Shown here in pieces: positions 22,000 to 23,939 of a DNA stretch of 34,796 nucleotides. The DNA lies in assembly GCA_012522475.1 (NCBI GenBank), contig JAAYKH010000010.1, positions 1 through 34,796 of the forward strand, written 5' to 3'. A program made the position numbers and the translations under genes. The stretch comes from Chloroflexota bacterium (GTDB lineage Bacteria; Chloroflexota; Anaerolineae; Anaerolineales; Anaerolineaceae). The notes beneath the pieces were generated by a model. It did no database searches. It had not been told where the DNA came from and saw nothing but the letters and a program-made list of their open reading frames with translations. The stretch's first letter is position 1. The number at the start of each line of letters is the position of its first letter.

Positions 22000-22109
22000 T
22001 GAGACTATTGTACTAATTTTTGTTAATTATTGCTGTCTGGTAGTGCCCAGACGGACTTGATTGAAAAAGCATAAAAAACACGGGCAGGCAGCGTAAAACG
22101 GATTTAATT

Positions 22110-22574
22110 TCAAGTGTCTAACCCCGCCAGAACCTTTAAAGGCTCGGCATTGTCTGGTTCCTCAATGTAAGAGCCCGCATAGTGGGTGTACACGATCTTT
22201 CCTCCTCTTTCCACCAGGATGACCGTGGGCGTACCCAATGAAAAGAGCTTCTGATCCTGGAAATATGCCTGTGCTACGCGAGAGCCTTTATCGCTCAGGA
22301 TGGTGTAGGGCATTGGGTGCTTGGTAAGGTATCGTTTGATCATGAAAGGCCCGTTGGGCACCAGGACCAGGATTTTTGCATTACGATCAGAAAATTGCTC
22401 ATAATCATGGCGCAACTGCGCCATATGGTTGGTGCAATGTGGTCAGGCAAACCCGACGTTGAACACAAGCAAAACATGGTGTTGTTGATACAGTGTTGAG
22501 AGTTTTACAAGGTTCCCAGCTTGATCGGGAAGTGAAAAATCCGGGGCAAAATCGCCAATCGTTAGTTTGTCCAA
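22110..22574 (-). CDS. Peroxiredoxin-like selenoprotein (in-frame UGA as Sec44)
   Basis: Read through one TGA, this gives a complete 154-residue AhpC/TSA-type thioredoxin-fold protein. It opens LTIGDFAPDFSLPDQAGNLV, reaches VLLVFNVGFA, then UGA (22445-22443), then PHCTNHMAQLRHDYEQF, and ends with SLGTPTVILVERGGKIVYTH (with the cis-proline TPT). In homologues the UGA position is the active-site cysteine of a CxxC motif, so the protein has UxxC. A SECIS-like hairpin lies 18 bases downstream. The start is TTG 22574, preceded by AGAGGT. A start at ATG 22424 would remove the active site and half the fold, so it is not believable. The likely role is selenium-dependent peroxide or thiol reduction. 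A nonsense mutation of TGC or TGT is the alternative. Confidence 0.8.
22407..22424 (-). promoter_or_regulatory. Bacterial SECIS-like hairpin after the UGA codon
   Basis: On the minus strand ATGGCGC-AGTT-GCGCCAT forms a perfect 7-bp stem with a four-base loop. The stem begins 18 bases after the UGA, and G is the second loop base followed by U, matching the known bacterial SECIS rules (a G among the first two loop bases, apical loop some 16-37 bases from UGA). Confidence 0.75.
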
Positions 22575-22801
22575 AGTATACCTCTTGTCATTTTCAGCGG
22601 GTTTTGATAGGGTTCAGGTCATATTTGTGATTGATAATCATACCTGAAAATTAATAAAATCACCATTTTTCTGTGAACATCTCGAACCTGTCAGGTTAGA
22701 TATGTATGTAGAAACCGGACTTCTGGTACAATAGTGCAGGCAATATGCGTGGCATATTGGCGAGATTTATAAAATAGGCTTCGAGCAGACTGGCTTTGCA
22801 T

Positions 22802-22830
22802 TTGACACGCTTCAATGCAAGGAATATACT
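22802..22830 (+). promoter_or_regulatory. Promoter of gmd
   Basis: TTGACA (22802-22807), a 17-base spacer, TATACT (22825-22830). Transcription would start about 30 bases before the GTG start of gmd at 22869. Confidence 0.8.
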
Positions 22831-22868
22831 ATCAACGCTTGTTTTGGAAGTCGACTTTGGAGGTTTTT

Positions 22869-23939
22869 GTGAAAACTGCATTAATCACAGGCATTACCGG
22901 GCAGGATGGTTCCTACCTGGCCGAGTTGTTATTACACAAAGGGTATGAGGTTCATGGGTTAATCCGCCGCTCGAGCACTTTCAATACCCGCCGAATTGAC
23001 CACATTTATCGCGACCCTCATGGCAATAATGGCAAGGTTAACCTGTTTTTGCATTATGGGGATGTCACCGCCGGCGATACCTTGCTGGATGTGCTCTACA
23101 ATGTCAAACCTGATGAAGTGTACCACCTGGCAGCACAGAGCCATGTGCGGGTAAGTTTTGATATGCCCGAGTATACCGGCGATGTGACGGGCTTGGGCAC
23201 AATTCGCATCCTGGAAGCTATCCGTAAAGCCGGGATGAAATCTCGCTTTTACCAGGCCTCATCCAGCGAGCTGTTTGGAGATTCCAAGCCGCCTCAAAAT
23301 GAGAACACACCCTTCCGACCGCGCAGCCCCTACGCTGCTGCAAAACTTTACAGTTACTGGATTGCTAATAACTATCGAGAGGGGTATGGCATGTACGCGG
23401 TCAATGGGATTTTGTTCAACCACGAGTCGCCACGCCGTGGCGAGACCTTCGTAACCCGCAAAATCACCCAGGCGCTGGCGAATATCATGGCTGGAAATCA
23501 GAAGCATCTCTACCTGGGTAACCTCGAATCGCGCCGTGATTGGGGTTATGCGCCCGAATATGTGGAGATGATGAACCTGATGCTCCAGCAGGATCAGCCA
23601 GAGGATTACGTGGTTGGCACCGGAGAAGCGCATACGATTGCTGAATTTCTTGATGAAGCCTTTGGCTATGTGGGCTTGGATTGGCATGACTATGTCCGTA
23701 TTGACCCCCGTTACTTCCGCCCAACCGAAGTCGATTACCTGGAAGCAGATACAAAAAAGGCGAAAAAGTTGCTCAATTGGGAGCCCAGGGTGAAATTCCA
23801 TGAGTTGGTACGGATTATGGTTGACGCTGACCTTGACCTGGTTGGCATAGAAAGCCCTGGCGATGGCAAGAAAATTATCGAAGAAAAATTTTCGGGCTGG
23901 CATCGCTGCGAAGATCAAGTCGTTTCAATGGAGCGATAA
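22869..23939 (+). CDS. gmd: GDP-mannose 4,6-dehydratase
   Basis: A 356-residue short-chain dehydratase. The NAD(P)-binding GITGQDG (residues 8-14) is followed by the GMD-typical [19 protein letters not shown]. The catalytic set is S132-x-E134 (ASSSELFG) and Y155-x3-K159 ([10 protein letters not shown]). [20 protein letters not shown] and [20 protein letters not shown] are signature stretches of the family. The enzyme converts GDP-mannose to GDP-4-keto-6-deoxymannose, the first step to GDP-fucose, rhamnose or similar sugars. The start is GTG 22869, with TTGGAGG in the proper place; an in-frame ATG at 22815 lies upstream of the likely transcription start. No partner epimerase/reductase (fcl or rmd) is next to it, so the pathway is completed elsewhere. 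Confidence 0.95.

Follow-up and report, generated by a model that had tools for sequence, protein, structure and literature searches.

Peroxiredoxin-like (Prx-like) UxxC selenoproteins are listed by surveys of 2005, 2008, 2022 and 2026 (PMC1088965, PMC2398784, PMC9312934, PMC13188914). These list a Prx-like selenoprotein (PMC1088965), Prx-like 1 and 3 (PMC2398784) and, in the tables of PMC13188914 and PMC9312934, Prx-like thiol:disulfide oxidoreductase selenoproteins with UxxC/UxxU motifs (pfam00578) together with UxxC proteins of the Redoxin family (PF08534). For selenoproteins and Anaerolineae, the available part of PMC5736913 mainly concerns formate dehydrogenases. The gene characterised here belongs to the already known kind of Prx-like UxxC selenoproteins (pfam00578): its product scores above the AhpC-TSA gathering threshold, it carries a UxxC motif with UGA and a SECIS-type hairpin downstream, and its genome contains the Sec genes.

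The window, a stretch of 34,796 nucleotides from an Anaerolineaceae genome (GCA_012522475.1, contig JAAYKH010000010.1), carries the following features:

22110..22574, minus strand: predicted selenoprotein gene, Prx-like/AhpC-TSA; TTG start, 154 aa, TGA terminator
22443..22445, minus strand: UGA codon 44, very probably read as selenocysteine (U of UPHC); TGA in 100 of 107 distinct matches, own gene included
22434..22436, minus strand: Cys47 (TGC), partner of U44 and the protein's sole cysteine; Cys here in 100 of 100 UGA-bearing rows
22407..22424, minus strand: putative SECIS hairpin of bacterial type; 7 bp, loop AGUU (22417-22414), UGA 18 nt before
22581..22585, minus strand: AGAGG, as read from the sequence a probable Shine-Dalgarno site for TTG 22574
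22227..22229, minus strand: Pro116 (CCC), invariant in alignments A1 and A2; aligns with the peroxiredoxin Arg and the thioredoxin-like Pro

The minus-strand reading frame extends from TTG 22574 to the terminator TGA at 22112-22110, with the TGA at 22445-22443 as its sole interruption, and this in-frame UGA forms part of a UxxC motif. When residues 1-151 were used as query, the Pfam models AhpC-TSA (87.7 bits, cut-off 26) and Redoxin (78.8 bits, cut-off 26.6) were both matched across the TGA. A preliminary description had proposed an AhpC/TSA-type protein that is complete only when this TGA is read, with UGA in place of the first cysteine of an active-site CxxC; the 154-residue product, the Pfam matches and the homologue alignment at codon 44 (U-P-H-C) bear this out. 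On sequence grounds, the internal UGA very probably specifies an active-site selenocysteine of a Prx-like redox protein.

The same UGA recurs in relatives. A search of 147 genomes of the family found exactly one TGA in 87 of 89 matches at E<=2e-16, the 87 spanning 72 genomes, and a search of 396 genomes of the class found TGA in 118 of 119 matches at E<=1e-20 (one also with TAA); in both searches stops were counted within the match without locating their position, and some genomes occur in both. Loci were then fetched as best matches (30 per genome search, the best 80 of 259 contig-database matches, and 20 stretches by position), which may lean towards Sec forms because the query is itself a Sec form. 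Aligned to the A1 profile, the fetched loci gave 167 rows, three of which were dropped for a gap at the Sec column (L068, L078, L134), and the remaining 164 reduced to 107 distinct rows. TGA occupied the Sec column in 100 of these 107, own gene included, with Cys at +3 in all 100; these 100 genes are interrelated, and L069 and L177 among them form long branches in the tree. L069 is distant, its match also holds a TAA, and in the tree it joins a separate AhpC-TSA paralogue (TRHFGCTQC and alike). Five of the seven rows lacking TGA represent this paralogue and are not counterparts of the window gene; the other two are L065 and L066. At five loci (L078, L147, L151, L168, L175) a Cys-type AhpC-TSA paralogue of this sort (TRHFGC[TP]QC) lies about 2 kb or less from a selenoprotein gene of the widespread group, in opposite orientation to it in four of them and in the same orientation in L078.

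A perfect 7-bp stem, AUGGCGC/GCGCCAU (22424-22418 / 22413-22407), with the loop AGUU follows the UGA, matching the hairpin with a G-U-containing loop 18 nt downstream that the preliminary description had reported. Its fold z-score was -2.64, with 3 of 200 shuffles equally stable. Across the 100 UGA-bearing genes, which are akin and whose codon and hairpin counts are not independent draws, the five-pair stem core was intact in 93 and the loop was AGUU in 98, while in the MAQLR stretch Ala was encoded by GCG in 97 of 100 (background share in the same genes 0.247), Gln by CAG in 98 of 98 (0.665), Leu by TTG in 99 of 100 (0.208) and Arg by CGC or CGT in 97 of 98 (0.584). At most other conserved residues codon entropy was close to background; milder biases concerned Phe at -2, just 5' of the UGA (TTT in 77 of 97), and Arg at +5, which is less conserved (CGG in 40 of 53). 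A SECIS-like rule, loose and of our own making, held for 92 of 100 natural UGA-bearing genes versus 462 of 20,000 random synonymous recodings of the hairpin stretch. When the 48 nt from the UGA onwards were folded freely, 10 of 30 genes favoured another minimum-energy fold, starting at or near the UGA. As for the Cys-type counterparts, the hairpin core and frozen codons are gone in L065 (CxxC); in L066 (CxxA) the codons differ, yet the loose rule still holds. The near-frozen state of the hairpin codons, while most conserved residues stay at about background, points to an RNA element: to judge from its sequence and codon usage, selection acts on the hairpin as RNA, as a bacterial SECIS, and the reading of it as a SECIS put forward earlier thus agrees with where the synonymous-codon constraint falls. 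Rfam models were run over 22100-22900, and the two matches obtained scored far under their gathering thresholds.

The host genome (2.26 Mb, 89 contigs, 98.6% complete) was searched for the Sec machinery. The preliminary description had made its selenoprotein depend on selA, selB, selC and selD, and all four are present. For selB, selA and selD the scores were 356.6, 535.9 and 334.1 bits, each above the curated cut-off, which in the 14 control genomes was exceeded by selA in one, selB in two and selD in two; among the machinery tests, that for selA is the most specific. Ten matches to the tRNA-Sec model were obtained, of which the highest-scoring (66.6 bits, cut-off 47) is called tRNA-SeC by ARAGORN; the next four (L002-L005) are tRNA-Ser or tRNA-Leu, one of them also above the cut-off. 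The ARAGORN call matters here because the model matches loosely, with a match in 14 of 14 controls, 5 of them above the cut-off. The host selD (L018, G000:C33) has one in-frame UGA of its own (SSCAG-U-ASK), and SelD is therefore probably a selenoprotein too.

Of the family genomes, 69 of the 72 that have a UGA copy (E<=2e-16) contain selA (E<=1e-50), versus 43 of the 75 others (Fisher p = 1.4e-8, kinship of genomes ignored). At the same selA threshold there was no match in G063, G098 and G109 despite their UGA copy, these being drafts of 440, 360 and 440 contigs, nor in G111, where the UGA-bearing match was a weak one at 27% identity and E = 4.8e-13. The 14 genomes of genus g9 (G036-G049) had neither selA at E<=1e-50 nor a UGA copy at E<=2e-16, possibly reflecting loss of the Sec trait.

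These results bear directly on two readings in which the UGA is not decoded. A Cys codon (TGC or TGT) mutated or misread to TGA could look alike, leaving a gene that is intact but for a lone in-frame stop. However, 99 other distinct sequences share the TGA, so sequencing error is excluded in practice and the codon is genuine, as had been proposed, and not a misread TGC or TGT; with the frame intact, the hairpin codons frozen and a complete Sec machinery in the genome, a pseudogene or error is improbable in the extreme. The UGA could alternatively be a true stop, followed by a second start at ATG 22424, which is in frame and could be picked by a gene caller, giving a short C-terminal protein. 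Against this, the residues before the UGA are conserved among relatives and part of the same Pfam domain, and ATG 22424 itself lies within the hairpin. The short form would lack the active site, as the preliminary description had stated; its further claim that half of the protein would go was too high, the loss being 50 of 154 residues, or a third. We consider a true stop very unlikely, and ordinary gene finders would probably cut the window gene short.

Which reaction the protein performs was approached through alignments with solved structures. The best matches were the peroxiredoxins 2ywn and 2cx3, where U44 falls at the Thr/Ser three residues before the peroxidatic Cys, Cys47 falls at the peroxidatic Cys itself, and Pro116 aligns with the peroxiredoxin Arg (as it also does in Rv2238c). 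In the thioredoxin-like chain 2l5o, a Cys stands opposite U44 and a Pro opposite Pro116. Both Cys47 and Pro116 are invariant in alignments A1 and A2. In peroxiredoxins the Thr and Arg are catalytic, and the Pro equivalent to Pro116 is cis in thioredoxin folds. The placement of U44 and Cys47 therefore suggests a thioredoxin-like UxxC site with no peroxidatic Sec, so that the earlier label "peroxiredoxin-like" suits the domain (AhpC-TSA) but not the site, in which by alignment Sec is away from the peroxidatic position.

Direct attack of U44 on peroxides, as in a true peroxiredoxin, would be compatible with Sec and differs on the reaction only. The peroxiredoxin structures among the best matches speak for it, as does the top NCBIfam match, thiol peroxidase PRK09437 (57.7 bits, below its cut-off of 140; none of the NCBIfam models listed for the window protein exceeded its own cut-off). 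Yet the peroxiredoxin Thr and Arg positions hold U and Pro, and the lone Cys is Cys47 of the UxxC motif. A Sec peroxidase is thus unlikely, if still to be reckoned with. Because U replaces the Thr and Pro the Arg, a thiol:disulfide reaction appears likelier than classical peroxidase chemistry, and a disulfide substrate likelier than a peroxide.

Taken as a whole, the gene very probably encodes a selenoprotein of the Prx-like thiol:disulfide oxidoreductase kind, with hairpin-directed Sec insertion predicted at codon 44 and U44/Cys47 chemistry likely. By analogy with known bacterial Sec decoding, the hairpin 18 nt past codon 44 would recruit SelB and Sec-tRNA-Sec, and UGA 44 would be decoded as selenocysteine. 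The product would present a U44-P-H-C47 active site on a thioredoxin-type fold with the invariant Pro116; U44 would be the likely attacking nucleophile, Cys47 would resolve the selenenylsulfide, and a thioredoxin-type reductant would presumably reset the enzyme.

In the tree, which was built on few columns, leaves 26 forks open and carries long-branch warnings, the clade of the window gene (GFA-U-PHC; 20 of 20 rows with UGA, one of them, L177, a long branch) sits on a long stem of 2.23 with support 100/100 inside a wider NRGF-U-PFC group. In twelve genomes of the family, a copy at >=54% identity is accompanied by another UGA-bearing match at 34-41%, which suggests that two Sec paralogues coexist there. 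We tentatively suggest, as a possibility short of an even chance, that the clade is a separate Sec-only subfamily with a substrate of its own and a need for Sec strict enough that Cys forms do not persist, the loop AGUU being near-invariant in the relatives examined.

Records labelled with other lineages also carry such genes. Widespread-group UGA members occur in L125, L138, L140, L143, L144, L160 and L174, labelled Desulfobacterales, Desulfobulbus/Desulfobulbaceae, Syntrophaceae, Syntrophomonadaceae and Deltaproteobacteria; L138 is the named strain Desulfobulbus alkaliphilus DSM 24258, which makes transfer likelier than misbinning in that case. At the end of locus L133 (6001-6291), labelled Ignavibacteriaceae, lies a copy of the GFA-U-PHC clade with 58% identity over residues 1-97.

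Gene neighbourhood was considered as a guide to function and dropped. Of 18 regions compared, 4 to 5, the window's included, share a large ORF, which we take to be valS, a GDP-mannose dehydratase and a beta-lactamase2-like gene, but synteny yields no function because the other regions with these neighbours come from the same genus, save L102 with a related synthetase-like ORF.

With this gene, Anaerolineaceae gain a selenoprotein that is well supported and bears a clear signature at the RNA level; the freezing of the hairpin codons may offer a simple means of separating Sec from Cys members in metagenomes. Among known systems, the SelL-related redox protein model NF040769 is matched by 30 of 30 A1 members at E<=0.001; the window protein scores 56.8, below the cut-off of 120, and lacks the UxxU motif that characterises SelL. 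With Sec peroxiredoxins (TxxU) it has the AhpC-TSA domain in common, but their Sec is the second of the motif's reactive residues, whereas in the window protein it is the first. The Thr/Ser of the TxxC/U motif and the Arg are active-site residues of classical peroxiredoxins; the window protein has U and Pro in their place. ResA/TlpA-type thiol-disulfide oxidoreductases were matched by both the profile and the single sequence and likewise have a CxxC-type pair, from which the window protein differs in having Sec for the first Cys and no signal peptide seen by eye. The accessible portions of the open-licence literature searched gave no account of the GFA-U-PHC clade. As far as the published descriptions extend, Prx-like UxxC selenoproteins share with the window protein the AhpC-TSA/Redoxin domain and the UxxC motif; compared with them by description, the GFA-U-PHC clade differs in being centred on Anaerolineaceae.
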